Shown piece by piece: positions 10,154-56,938 of a stretch of 64,000 nt of DNA (position 1 is its first letter; the number at the start of each line of letters is the position of its first letter). Under the pieces are notes generated by a model. The model was not told the origin of the DNA, made no database searches, and saw nothing but the letters and a program-made list of their open reading frames with translations. The translations under genes and the position numbers were made by a program. This stretch comes from Acididesulfobacillus acetoxydans (lineage in GTDB: Bacteria; Bacillota; Desulfitobacteriia; Desulfitobacteriales; Desulfitobacteriaceae). The stretch lies in NCBI RefSeq assembly GCF_902729405.1, contig NZ_LR746496.1:1240001-1304000 (forward strand), read 5' to 3'.

Positions 10154-10278
10154 ATGTCAAGTCGGCGCCGGTCTCGGAGTAGACCCCGGACGGATGAAGG
10201 GTCAGCCATGAATTGCCAAGACAGACAACAAAGATGAACTACGACGTGAAGCTTTAAAGACGACCCAGAGATAGAGCT

Positions 10279-10410
10279 GAAGATATAGATATAATAGAGA
10301 TAGAGATAGAGATAAAGATAGAGATAAAGATAGAGATAGAGATAAAGATAGAGATAAAGATAGAGATAAAGATAAAGATAGAGATAAAGATAGAGATAAA
10401 GATAAGATAA
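10279..10410. repeat. GATA-type hexanucleotide microsatellite
   Basis: About 130 bp of GATAGA and GATAAA units in tandem, purine-only except for the T of each unit. The reverse strand reads as an alternating Leu-Tyr open frame that is an artefact of the repeat. It lies between the DUF2512 gene and nifJ. Such tracts are rare in bacterial chromosomes and prone to length change. Confidence 0.9.
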
Positions 10411-51892: not shown

Positions 51893-52795
51893 ATGAAGAA
51901 AACCGTATTTCTGGCCCCAGCCGTACTGCTCTTGTCCCTGGGTTTGACAGCCTGCGGGACGACGACAGCCGCCTCGTCGACCCCTTCTTCGCCCTCCAAC
52001 GGCAAGACCTCAACCGCAGCGGCTTCCTCTCTCAAAACAGATGACCTTTACATGACGATCAAACCCGGCCTAAAATTGGGTTCGGACGGCAAACTGCATG
52101 ATTCTTTCTCACCCACGGATTTGACCTTCACGCAAGGGGTTCCCACCAAGGTGACCGTCTTAAATTATGACGACGGTTCCCACGATATTGTTGCCAAAGA
52201 CATGAATCTCGACCAGCAGATTCCAGGTTCCAAGAAAAAGGGTGTCCCTTCAGTGACGACCTTCACGGTGACAGCGACCAAGACGGGCGACTTCCATTGG
52301 GCTTGCGATGTGCCGTGTGACGGGGCGGCCCATCCCGACAAACCCGGTTCCAACAAAGGCTGGGCCATGAATCATGACGGTTATATGGCCGGGACCTTCC
52401 GGGTCGTGTCCCAACAACCTTCTGTGGAAAACGTGGCGATGACAGTGCTGCCGGGTACGAAGCTGGGCTCTGACGGCAAGCTGCACGATATCTTCTCGCC
52501 GGCTAATCTCACAATTCGTAAGGGCGAGACTAAAGTCACCGTCTACAACTATGACGGCGGTTCTCATGACTTTGTCTCTAAGGACTTGAATCTTAATGTG
52601 CAAGTGCCCGGACACAAGAAAAAGGGTGACCCGTCTGTGACCACCTTCATTATCAAAGCGGATAAAGCGGGAAATTATCACTGGCTCTGCAATGTTCCCT
52701 GCGACGGCGCGGCTAATCCCAACAAACCCGGCTCGGCCAAAGGTTGGGCTATGAGTCATGACGGTTATATGGCTGGCATTGTGCACGTCGAGTAA
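51893..52795 (+). CDS. Lipoprotein with two CuA-like cupredoxin repeats
   Basis: 300 residues. Signal peptide with lipobox LTAC (Cys21), a Ser/Thr linker, and two ~115-residue copies of one domain. In each, the order is His (97; 225), C-x3-C (138/142; 266/270), His (161; 289) and Met (165; 293). This is the ligand order of a CuA site (His, CxxxC, His, Met) though the second Cys and His are 18 residues apart instead of 3. The copies share GSDGKLHD, WxCxVPCDG and WAMxHDGYMAG. It is a surface-bound copper or electron-transfer protein by inference. AGGAGG precedes ATG. Confidence 0.85.
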   Translation: MKKTVFLAPAVLLLSLGLTACGTTTAASSTPSSPSNGKTSTAAASSLKTDDLYMTIKPGLKLGSDGKLHDSFSPTDLTFTQGVPTKVTVLNYDDGSHDIVAKDMNLDQQIPGSKKKGVPSVTTFTVTATKTGDFHWACDVPCDGAAHPDKPGSNKGWAMNHDGYMAGTFRVVSQQPSVENVAMTVLPGTKLGSDGKLHDIFSPANLTIRKGETKVTVYNYDGGSHDFVSKDLNLNVQVPGHKKKGDPSVTTFIIKADKAGNYHWLCNVPCDGAANPNKPGSAKGWAMSHDGYMAGIVHVE

Positions 52796-52989
52796 GGCAA
52801 AGCCGTTCAGTTTCTCCCGGGCAGCCTTGGCAACGGAACAAAGGTGTGGGCCCCGGGCGGATGCATCGGTTCTATTCGGGGGATCCACCGGATCAGTTCA
52901 AGGGTTACCGGGAATCCCCGGCGCTGGCGCCGAAGAGTCTCTGAAAAGTCTATCGGGTCTGTTCAGGGAAAAATCTATCGAATCTGTTC

Positions 52990-53014
52990 AAGCCGCAGAA
53001 ATGCGGCTTTTTTG
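52990..53014 (+). terminator. Rho-independent terminator
   Basis: AAGCCGCA-GAAA-TGCGGCTT followed by TTTTT; it ends the lipoprotein transcript, about 195 bp past the stop. Confidence 0.88.
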
Positions 53015-53018
53015 TCCT

Positions 53019-53123
53019 ATCAGAAAATATAAATCCCCCGCAGGATAAGAAAACTTGCGTCAGCCGGCTTGATTCAACCGATCGCTCGTTTGAGCGATCG
53101 CAGCAGCCGAGTTTTCCTTATCG
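53019..53123 (+). repeat. Structured interspersed element, copy A
   Basis: About 105 nt beginning ATCAGAAAATATAA. It contains a 34-nt stretch (53068-53101) identical to copy B at 63450. The centre is a perfect hairpin CGATCGCTC-GTTT-GAGCGATCG. Outer segments ATAAGAAAACT and AGTTTTCCTTAT pair with one bulge, and CGGCT pairs with AGCCG. It may be a small RNA or a mobile repeat. Confidence 0.75.
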
Positions 53124-53258
53124 GCGTGTCAAGCATAACGATTAACCAGACGGTGAAATTTCGTTATAGGGGTAGCAAACGATGAAAATACCCGCGACGG
53201 AAGCCGCCGAAAACCGGGAGGATTTTACCTGCCGCCGCCGAAAAGTTCTAGTGAAGAG

Positions 53259-53372
53259 AGATGTGTACATGGGAAAAAGATGTGTACATGGAAAAGAGAT
53301 GTGTACATGGAAAAGAGATGTGTACATGGAAAAGAGATGTTTACATGGAAAAGAGGTGTTTACATGAAAAGT
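53259..53372 (+). repeat. Six tandem 19-bp units carrying ribosome site and ATG
   Basis: Unit AGATGTGTACATGGAAAAG at 53259, 53278, 53297, 53316, 53335 and 53354 (last two with small changes). Each AAAGAG is followed 8 or so bases later by an ATG. As 19 is not a multiple of three, successive ATGs fall in different frames. Only some are in frame with the regulator gene; the last ATG (53364) is the true start by context. Confidence 0.92.
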
Positions 53373-55187
53373 CTCAGGCAGGGCGTGATAGAAGCCGTTC
53401 ACAACGGCGTGCTGGCGATCGATACGGAGGGTAAGGTCGTTCTGTGCAATAAGGCAGCGGAGAGAGTTTTGAATTTATCTGTCGGCGAGGTCTTGGGCCG
53501 GTCTATTTTGGACTTTTTTCCGGAGTCGAGGACCTATGGCGTCTTGCAAACAGGTCAACCCGAGGTTGACTGTCCCTATGCCTGCAAGGGTTTGAATCTC
53601 CTGGTCGATTTTCTCCCGATTGCCGATCAGGGGCAAATTCTGGGGGCGGCGGCCATTGTTAAAGATGTCACCGAACTGGAGACGGTCGCGGGACGGCTGG
53701 GCAGTGTTCAGGAATTGGCAGCGACTCTGGAGGCTGTTGTGGAGAATTCCTATGAAGGGATCGTCGTTATCGACGACCGGGAACGAGTTGTCCTGATTAA
53801 TCAGTTCTTTCTCGAACTCATGGGTTATACGTCGGAGGACGTGGTGGGCAGACACATCCATGAGGTGAGCCCTGAATCCCAACTGCCCCAAACCCTTAAG
53901 ACAGGAATTGCCCAGTTTGGCGAACCTTGGCACGTGGGCGGCAGGGATTTTCTGATTATGCGGGTCCCGATTAAACGGGACGGCAAGATTATTGGGGCTT
54001 TGGGCAAGACTCTCTTCAAGAATATGGAAATTGCCAAGATGTTCGCCCGTAAAGTGGTTCGCTTGGAAGAGGATCTCGCCTTCTATAAGGAGGAGTTGAG
54101 CAAAATACACAGTTCCCAATTCAGTTTTGCCGACATCAGCGGGGAAAACGAGCACATGCTGGCTGCCAAGGCATTGGCCCTGCGCGCGGCGCGCACGACT
54201 TCGACGATCTTGCTCTTGGGCGAAAGCGGGACGGGAAAAGAGGTCTTTGCCCATGCTATTCATCAGGCCAGTCTGCGCCGCCGGGGACCGTTTGTCCGGA
54301 TTAATTGCGCCTCCCTGCCGGAGAGCCTGCTCGAGTCGGAACTTTTCGGTTATGCGGAAGGCGCGTTTACCGGAGCGCGTAAAGGCGGAAAGCCGGGAAA
54401 ATTTGAACTGGCCGACAAAGGTACTATTTTCCTTGATGAGATCGGAGATATGAGTCTCGGCATGCAGGCTAAACTTCTGCGGGTCATTCAGGAACGGGAA
54501 GTGGACCGGATCGGGGGAACCCATCCGATCAAAGTGGACGTGCGGGTGATTTCCGCCACGAATCGCGATCTGCACCGGATGGTCATGGAACACAAATTTA
54601 GGCTCGATCTGTATTACCGCCTTAATGTTGTGACTTTGGAACTTCCTCCTTTGCGTGAGCGGGTTGAAGATCTGGAGGGGATCATCAAGACGCTGCTGGA
54701 ACGTTTGAACCGGAGACTGGGAACTGTTGTCGAAGGAGTAAGCAAGGAGACACTGGATATCTTTCGCAGCTACGGCTGGCCCGGCAACATTCGGGAATTG
54801 GAAAATGTCCTGGAACGGGCGATGATCATATCGGACGAACCGTATATATCCCCTGAGCACCTTGCCCCGTCCCTGCGCTCCACCGGCGGGGAGGAGTCTG
54901 GGGAGAGAGGGGCGGGACAAACATCTTTTTCCGAAAACTTATCCTTGGAAGAAGCTTTGAAGGCGGCCGAAAAAGAAATTCTCAGCCGGGCCTTGCGGCG
55001 CAGCGGGGGTAACAAACTGCAGGCGGCCAAGGCCTTGGGTATTCATCGTTCGGCCCTTTACAAGAAACTGGCCCGTCATAATCTGCTCCCCCCGCGCGAA
55101 AACATGAGTCCCGCAGTCGCTGCGTTAAAGCAGCCGGAAGCGGGTGAGGCGGACCATGGAGAGACAGAGCACGGCGGGACGGGGTAG
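53364..55187 (+). CDS. PAS-containing sigma-54-dependent activator
   Basis: 607 residues from ATG 53364. PAS domain 1 about 5-60 ([22 protein letters not shown]), a short CPYAC loop, PAS domain 2 about 120-225 ([18 protein letters not shown]), AAA+ domain with Walker A GESGTGKE, the sigma-54 loop [13 protein letters not shown], Walker [12 protein letters not shown], arginine fingers [10 protein letters not shown] and a Fis-type HTH ([22 protein letters not shown]). It very probably drives the acyl-CoA operon, whose consensus sigma-54 promoter lies 350 bp downstream. Longer in-frame starts exist inside the repeat array. Confidence 0.95.
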
Positions 55188-55347
55188 AGCGGCACGAATT
55201 GAGGAGGTACGGATCAAGGCGGGACGTGGCAAAGCGGGAGGGATTAAAACGGGAGAGATTAACACAGTGTTCACGCAAGAAGACATATGTCTCTATTAAT
55301 GGACAACTGCGCAGAAATAGCCGCGGAAAGGGCTTTTATAGTGTTTT

Positions 55348-55389
55348 GAGCAGGGTGAGTGTTTCCGAGAATGGACACTTACCCTGCTC
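55348..55389. promoter_or_regulatory. Long palindrome, probable enhancer site of the acyl-CoA operon
   Basis: Arms GAGCAGGGTGAGTGT (55348-55362) and its complement (55375-55389; 14 of 15 bases match) around 12 bases. It contains TGT-N12-ACA. It is about 150 bp upstream of the -24 box, the distance expected for a sigma-54 enhancer. Confidence 0.72.
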
Positions 55390-55540
55390 GGTTAGGCAGT
55401 GCAGCAGGGGTTACGGTCAGAATTACGGGGTGGAAAACCAGCGGACGCTCGACCGCAAAAGAAGAGAAAAGGCGGGAAAGAGCGAATTCCAGACTTTCCT
55501 GTCATAATTCCAGGAGTCCAAACCAAAATACAGGTAATTG

Positions 55541-55556
55541 TGGCACAGTTCTTGCA
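55541..55556 (+). promoter_or_regulatory. Consensus sigma-54 promoter of the acyl-CoA operon
   Basis: TGGCACAGTTCTTGCA: full match to TGGCAC-N5-TTGCA, with GG at 55542-55543 and GC at 55554-55555. Transcription should begin near 55567, about 185 bp before the thiolase. Confidence 0.93.
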
Positions 55557-55750
55557 GTTTGGGTAATTGATGCTATTGGCAAGAGTAGCTATTGTCAATA
55601 GTCATCATTGCAAAAGCACTTTACTAAGAAACTGCTATTGAGAAGAATGAGGCATGGTTGTGACCCGAGCGACAAGGTTGGTTTCAAGCTGGGCCAAGCA
55701 AGCAGGGCTGAACAAGCGGGGATAAGATGGTAAAGATGGGAGGAAAGAGG

Positions 55751-56938
55751 ATGGCAAGGGCCGTGATTGTCAGTGCAGCCCGCACGCCGTTTGGTACTTT
55801 GGGTGGCAGCCTCAAAGAGGTTCCGGCGGTCGATTTGGGCGCTCACGTTATCAGGGAAGCTATCCGCCGGGCCGGGATCAGCGGCGAGATAGTGGACAAT
55901 CTTCTTATGGGTATGGTGATTCAAGGAGGTGCGGGTCAGATTCCCTCGCGTCAGGCTGGAATCAAAGCCGGACTGCCCAATACGGTGACTTCAGAAACGA
56001 TTAATAAGGTCTGCGCGTCAGGCCTGAGGGCGGTGACCTTGGGTGAAACCATCATACGGGCCGGGGACGCGGAAATAATCGTGGCCGGGGGAATGGAAAG
56101 CATGTCCGGTGCTCCCTTTGCCCTCAAGAGGGCCCGCTTCGGTTATCGCATGGGGAACGACAGTGTGATTGATCTCATGGTTCACGACGGGCTCTGGTGC
56201 GCTTTTCATAATGTGCATATGGCGGTGCACGGCTCAAGGGTGGCCAAGGAATACGGGATTACCCGAGAGGAGCAGGACCAATTTGCCCTGCGTTCGCACC
56301 GTTTGGCACTCAAGGCTATTGACGAAGGGCGCTTCGCCGAGGAGATAGCCCCGCTGGCCATACCCCAGAAGAAGGGGGAAGCGAAGATTTTTGCCGTGGA
56401 CGAGGCTCCGCGCCGGGACACGAATGCGGAAAAATTAGCGGCGCTGCCGCCCATCTTTGTTCAGGATGGGACCGTGACGGCGGGGAATGCGCCGGGGGTG
56501 AACGACGGGGCCGGGGCGATGGTCTTGATGAGTGAAGAGAAAGCGACCGCACTCGGCAATAAGCCCTTGGCCTATATTCTCGGCCACGCCACGGTGGCGC
56601 AGGAGCCAGCCTACATCGCGACGACTCCCGGGTTGGCCATTAACAAACTGTTAAAGCAGAAAGGCATGACCATTAAGGACATTGACCTGATCGAAGCCAA
56701 CGAGGCCTTTGCCGCGGTGGCCTTGACCAGTCAGAAGATCGCCGGGTGGGATCCGGAGAAGGTTAATGTCAACGGCGGCGCGATTGCCCTCGGCCACCCG
56801 ATCGGGGCCAGCGGGGCCCGGATTATCATGACTCTGATCTACGAACTTCGGCGTCGGGGCGGGGGCTTGGGTATTGCGGCCATTTGCAGCGGGGCGGCTC
56901 AAGGGGATGCCATTCTCTTGGAAGTTCCGGGTGCCTAG
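55751..56938 (+). CDS. Acetyl-CoA acetyltransferase (thiolase), first copy
   Basis: 395 residues from ATG 55751 (GGGAGG 7 bases upstream). Acyl-enzyme Cys in [10 protein letters not shown], the His in [16 protein letters not shown] and the late Cys in [20 protein letters not shown] is also standard. It condenses two acetyl-CoA or splits 3-ketoacyl-CoA. It is the first gene of the sigma-54-driven operon. It shares many residues with the second thiolase at 62049, but they are clearly different proteins. Confidence 0.95.

Follow-up and report, generated by a model that had tools for sequence, protein, structure and literature searches.

Ahead of the gene for a sigma-54 dependent regulator, Acididesulfobacillus acetoxydans carries a 19-bp tandem array that is real and unusual, and that is most likely a minisatellite derived from a duplicated start site. 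We assign a probability of roughly 60% to the reading in which the array grew from such a duplication, its last unit being functional and its regulatory effect modest at most. The array lies within a stretch of 64,000 nucleotides (the window) of a genome available as one contig (4,520,225 bases; sampled GC content of 53.5%). The species has a single chromosome of 4.52 Mb with 53.65% GC, assembled from PacBio reads with HGAP and corrected with Illumina reads, according to the available part of the genome description (PMC8982180). This long-read assembly makes the unit count at the array credible.

Tandem Repeats Finder (TRF), run on the window, reports 6.3 copies of period 19 at positions 53253-53371 of the forward strand (score 189, 92% matches), that is, six units plus a few bases. 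The units start at 53253, 53272, 53291, 53310, 53329 and 53348 and together span 53253-53366, and comparison of the array with itself at an offset of 19 gives 91 equal positions out of 100. The array is thus not a chance pattern, and the near-identical 19-bp units that the preliminary description had seen are indeed present. The same description gave every unit an AAAGAG and an ATG. An ATG does occur in all six, but units 1-5 hold two (agATG and acATG) and unit 6 one, and AAAGAG is absent from unit 1 (GAAGAGAG) and unit 2 (GGAAAAAG). The five upstream units contain AGAGATG or AAAGATG. The last one, GAAAAGAGGTGTTTACATG (53348-53366, forward strand), is the sole unit with AGAGGTG, likely the Shine-Dalgarno sequence that precedes the start ATG at 53364; GTTTACAT is present in units 5 and 6. 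When the whole genome was searched for the unit with up to three mismatches, seven matches were obtained: the six units and one at C1:4518465, which has two mismatches, is at the level of the reversed controls (1 and 1) and lies, by our reading, in an unrelated place. No plasmid match to 53000-53900 was found, and no paper on this array was among those listed by literature searches, in which the core string was likewise absent from the matches listed. Elsewhere in the window, at 10267-10409, TRF detects another array, in which AGAGAT is repeated about 24 times.

The regulator (53364-55187, forward strand; 607 amino acids) combines a PAS domain, a sigma-54 AAA+ domain and a Fis-type helix-turn-helix, and its best matches outside the genus are 60-65% identical. 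Its translation likely begins within the last unit, at ATG 53364, judging from sequence: Shine-Dalgarno pairing at this codon is the maximum of the array (-7.1 kcal/mol, against values between -1.4 and -5.4 for the remaining ATGs of the array, calculated with the anti-Shine-Dalgarno sequence), and the start of the regulator in a congener (genome G001) aligns with it. Both observations favour the duplicated start site. Two points weigh against it, since two comparison starts pair better (-11.2 and -10.2 kcal/mol) and an ATG upstream of the array, at 53182, rivals the real start with -6.5 kcal/mol. The latter opens a frame of 61 codons (53182-53367, forward strand) that terminates in a TGA overlapping the ATG of the regulator (ATGA); in our alignment this ATG is ACG in the congener, and hence it is not conserved. 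A terminator-like hairpin (52990-53009, forward strand) lies 3' of the upstream gene, which suggests a separate transcript for the regulator. Next to it is a dispersed hairpin element (53008-53123, forward strand), with partial copies elsewhere in this genome and in the congener, that by our reading is missing at the congener's locus and of which no copies were found in 400 kb of the other sampled genomes. Downstream of the regulator, TGGCACAGTTCTTGCA (55541-55556, forward strand) is the only zero-mismatch match to a sigma-54 promoter in the window. It precedes thiolase and acyl-CoA dehydrogenase frames (names by our reading), which are likely the regulator's target.

In phase-variable contingency loci with simple repeats, the number of repeats alters expression, and repeat number could alter expression here as well. 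The preliminary description proposed that this occurs through the reading frame, with the unit number determining the upstream ATG that shares the regulator's frame. Part of its premise holds, because 19 is not divisible by three and the 11 array ATGs, 53364 included, do fall in all three frames (4, 3 and 4). However, no ATG of the array lies downstream of the main start, which remains in frame with its own gene at any unit number. Moreover, three or more units already place ATGs in all three frames, and frame therefore cannot be a switch. The weaker Shine-Dalgarno pairing at the other array ATGs likewise counts against a role of the upstream ATG in frame. In contrast to contingency loci, no on/off state follows from frame logic in this array, whose unit has 19 bp, and gain or loss of units does not move the gene in or out of frame; we regard frame-based phase variation as very unlikely. 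The array ATGs may be a source of candidate short decoy peptides. A related reading, in which the regulator truly starts at 53280 or 53307 and bears an N-terminal extension encoded by the repeat, draws on an open frame and on a related regulator of another genus with a CBS domain added N-terminally to its PAS domain. The extension (28 codons, 53280-53363, forward strand) consists of repeat sequence only and is probably untranslated; in a domain scan of the extended protein it contributes no Pfam domain, unlike the CBS domain. Furthermore, the upstream starts have a weaker Shine-Dalgarno sequence, and in the congener (locus L068) the open frame upstream of the start enters insertion-element sequence in which the repeat is absent. 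An upstream start is, if anything, even harder to credit than a frame switch. The close relative with the CBS domain (L069 1501-3603, genome G012), the one among the best matches outside the genus whose domains were scanned, has it in addition to what is found in A. acetoxydans, where the regulator is thus taken to begin at the PAS domain.

The history of the array can be approached through the congener. There, the left flank of the locus (contig C28) carries GAAGAGAGGTGTGTCCATG followed by a GAAAAGAGGTGTT that is broken by an insertion, that is, two units; it reads GAAGAGAGGTGTGTCCATGGAAAAGAGGTGTT and then continues into the insertion element. The right flank (contig C42) carries the regulator start. 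By our reading, each of the two contig ends holds one half of the same IS110-family transposase, from which we infer that the contigs adjoin. The congener's locus thus appears to hold two units, the second split by the element, as against six in A. acetoxydans, so that unit number appears to differ between the two species. The element's target in the congener resembles the last array unit, and the insertion gives the congener's regulator a stronger Shine-Dalgarno sequence (-10.0 kcal/mol). IS110 insertion as the origin of the arrays was rejected: in A. acetoxydans the element is matched only over 56 bases (about 80%, at several places) and at its ends in two cases, over 40 and 43 bases. In the congener, the six near-identical copies found all end in GGAGGTTTACATG (ends also given as GAGATGGAGGTTTACATG), a more diverged copy on contig C59 lying outside this group. 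The element loci are L343, L345, L347, L349, L351, L353 and L009, with GGAGGTTTACATG carried by the right end. By our reading, three of the five readable right-hand junctions are at gene starts (the regulator, an epimerase-like gene and a signal-peptide protein), one is inside a corrinoid-protein-like gene and one is ahead of a short frame. Genes downstream of the element may in this way receive a ribosome site from it.

In the model that we favour, the minisatellite would have arisen from the start site of the regulator itself (ribosome-binding site plus start codon). This site was probably already double in the ancestor shared with the congener and would have grown to six units in A. acetoxydans, with slippage during replication or unequal recombination as the likely cause. 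Initiation would take place at ATG 53364, and the five upstream units would mostly be tolerated passengers, so that the functional effect is presumably small. The two units on the congener's left flank support this model, as does an array before a xanthine-permease-like gene (array 5 below) that likewise has two units in the congener and six in A. acetoxydans. The lack of a sigma-70-like promoter in 52790-53480 and of any Rfam match in 52700-55800 up to an E value of 1 is also in line with it.

The model further places the array, as a putative member, in a small set of intergenic arrays within a minisatellite-rich genome whose arrays vary between species. In fact, array density is high in A. 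acetoxydans, another point in favour of the model: intergenic arrays number 18 per 400 kb, against 9 in the congener, and 400 kb from four genomes representing three further genera, which are lower in GC content, gave 2. The sampled density of about 40-45 intergenic minisatellites per Mb is far above that of these related genera. Five arrays of the genome have the core GTGTACAT in units that are otherwise different, with spacers that vary and a period between 18 and 20. The five, with cores counted at no more than one mismatch, are array 1 (C1:1076k; 36 cores, period 19), array 2 (C1:1174k; 5 cores, period 19), the window array (6 cores, period 19), array 4 (C1:1932k; 18 cores, period 20) and array 5 (C1:3987k; 6 cores, period 18). 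All five are intergenic by our reading. Only the window array includes a start site; by our reading, array 1 stops about 20 bp before one and the other three are considerably more than 100 bp away. The longest array of GTGTACAT and GTGTCCAT type (L097 3120-3835), with its 36 counted cores, is flanked by an epimerase-like gene and a nucleotidyltransferase-like gene. The genome holds 86 occurrences of GTGTACAT (27 in the reversed control), 45 of which are in the five arrays. Paired TGTACAT motifs separated by 5-15 bases match 39 times in this genome, against none in the reversed control. At least one match is present in 13 of the 41 genomes, the second-highest count being four. Pairs of GTGTNCAT number 63 in A. 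acetoxydans and 1 in the congener, with none in the reversed controls. Within the class, a triple core pattern is confined to three of 82 genomes: A. acetoxydans (five loci), the congener (contig C18) and G018. In a collection of species genomes it occurs in at least 110 stretches, many phyla being represented among the matches listed, a result that gives no firm picture of its distribution. The C18 array of the congener (period of 21 bp) was set aside, as by our reading the opposite strand has a coding frame there with heptad-like repeats, and the array is probably coding.

About 0.1 arrays with a given 8-mer would be expected (180 x 38/65536, the approximately 180 arrays genome-wide being extrapolated from 32 intergenic arrays in 800 kb), against the five observed, of which only three are independent because the core was picked after two arrays had been seen. 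The shared core nevertheless exceeds what neutral, independent slippage predicts and counts against our model. Related repeat units thus occur at several non-coding loci, as in transposed satellites, the window array being linked to the others by the core alone. A start-codon repeat family of the TAACTGA type, with the repeat just upstream of many genes, is not what is found. The core could instead be a putative protein-binding site, in which case the arrays would gather that protein beside genes. This is compatible with an identical 8-base core in five arrays that differ in spacers and period, with the confinement of the triple pattern to so few genomes of the class, and with the retention of the core in all six units of array 5 although the spacers vary. 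However, single copies are not enriched in intergenic regions: there are 41 of them, and among the 40 looked at with a crude frame caller eight are intergenic and no common context was seen. In addition, array 1 consists mostly of GTGTCCAT (23 of 36 cores), and by our reading the orientation of the arrays relative to neighbouring genes varies. Selection on the core was not supported either, as the difference in conservation is not significant (variable columns are 3 of 40 in the core and 11 of 55 in the spacer over the five arrays; Fisher p 0.14). We consider arrays of operators improbable. Avoidance of a restriction site was also rejected as the source of the core. Raw counts of TGTACA had seemed low, but a Markov model of 800 kb of the genome disagrees (83 observed, 74.8 expected).

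General kinship among the arrays of A. acetoxydans was rejected: an 8-mer is common to one pair among the 27 arrays sampled (periods of at most 30; 800 kb sample, which left out array 4), against 2.5 in shuffles, and among the first 15 arrays 7-mers are common to six pairs against 3.0 (p 0.07). In the congener, an 8-mer is common to two pairs among eight sampled arrays against 0.16 (p 0.01), and TCAGAGGT is common to array 4 and two sampled arrays of the congener; there is thus some kinship beyond the GTGTACAT set, at least in the congener. At the locus of array 1, the congener has one unit like the first type of A. acetoxydans, followed by four GGTGTACGTCTkAmATCAGA units that resemble array 4 of A. 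acetoxydans (GGTGTACATCAGAmATCAGA) and have the same internal A/C variant, while no array was found in the congener at the locus of array 4. In a degenerate search, this 20-bp unit type has perfect matches at just two places, locus 4 in A. acetoxydans (17 units) and locus 1 in the congener (four units); with one or two mismatches there are 12 matches in the former and 17 in the latter (reversed controls 10 and 8). That the same unit type occupies different loci in the two species suggests that units move. At locus 2, the congener has by our reading an old degenerate array without GTGTACAT, and array 2 may thus be convergent. Array growth driven by hairpins was rejected as a general explanation, since four-unit DNA folds of the 27 arrays gave a mean z of 0.09 relative to shuffled units; z was below -1 in three arrays, and that of the window unit was -1.75 (p 0.09).

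Because the core GTGTACAT is self-complementary, units can pair in mRNA, and folding predictions make it possible that a regulatory effect runs through mRNA structure rather than frame. Shuffled sequences fold less well than the RNA of the array region (z -3.14), and in silico the cost of opening the Shine-Dalgarno sequence together with the start alternates between even and odd unit numbers. For three to eight units, the mean cost for even minus odd numbers is +1.56 to +3.44 kcal/mol in all ten combinations of context and scheme, which are not independent, as the two schemes differ only for three to five units. With scrambled upstream units, none of 60 controls reached the real value of 1.56 in the one context and scheme used. 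The fold and the parity pattern indicate that the array may not be neutral, contrary to our model. Units would pair in twos through the core, and translation might accordingly be flipped from one level to another when a single unit is gained or lost. If the number is even, the partner of the last unit would be left with no other free partner and the start would be held closed, whereas with an odd number this partner would re-pair elsewhere and the start would open more easily. However, these are predictions for naked RNA at equilibrium, no parity effect is seen when the Shine-Dalgarno sequence alone is opened, and the minimum-energy fold around the start is alike for five and six units. Moreover, GTTTACAT in units 5 and 6 weakens the pairing, and four of the five GTGTACAT arrays have no start site. 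Such tuning by parity is unlikely on balance. A combined version, in which the array belongs to a family of movable GTGTACAT minisatellites, mainly in A. acetoxydans and its congener, and would act as a counting switch in the mRNA leader, appears more doubtful still.

The duplicated start site is thus best placed among bacterial minisatellites or VNTRs, with which the array shares short, near-identical head-to-tail units, here within the range of about 10-100 bp, and a copy number that is apparently different in a relative. It differs from them in that the unit comprises a ribosome site and a start codon and that five arrays have one core. Prokaryotic satellite families, as presented in the available part of Subirana and Messeguer (2019; PMC6749651), are related non-coding tandem repeats at several loci that are read as the result of intraspecies transposition; in the same excerpt, transposed non-coding families with long repeats are rare and are exemplified by Leptospira interrogans and Methanocella conradii. 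Related non-coding repeats occur at several loci here too; however, the repeats of those families, as far as that excerpt goes, are long, whereas the units described here are 18-20 bp and have mainly the core in common. The TAACTGA direct repeats of the Beggiatoaceae form, in the part of the report available (PMC4679880), 169 sets of one heptamer with little Shine-Dalgarno character. As portrayed there, they are likewise tandem repeats over the expected ribosome site by start codons with a possible translational role, but in A. acetoxydans one of five arrays holds a start, and the unit is longer and contains a Shine-Dalgarno sequence and an ATG.

If the parity effect is real, repeat number would control translation independently of reading frame or spacing, and, were the counting switch true, slippage by one unit would flip regulator synthesis. 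Beyond the regulator, this genome has five arrays with one 8-base core, although its sampled minisatellites otherwise look unrelated. Together with one unit type that is found at different loci in two congeners, this core set is a good case for the question of how short satellites spread in bacteria.
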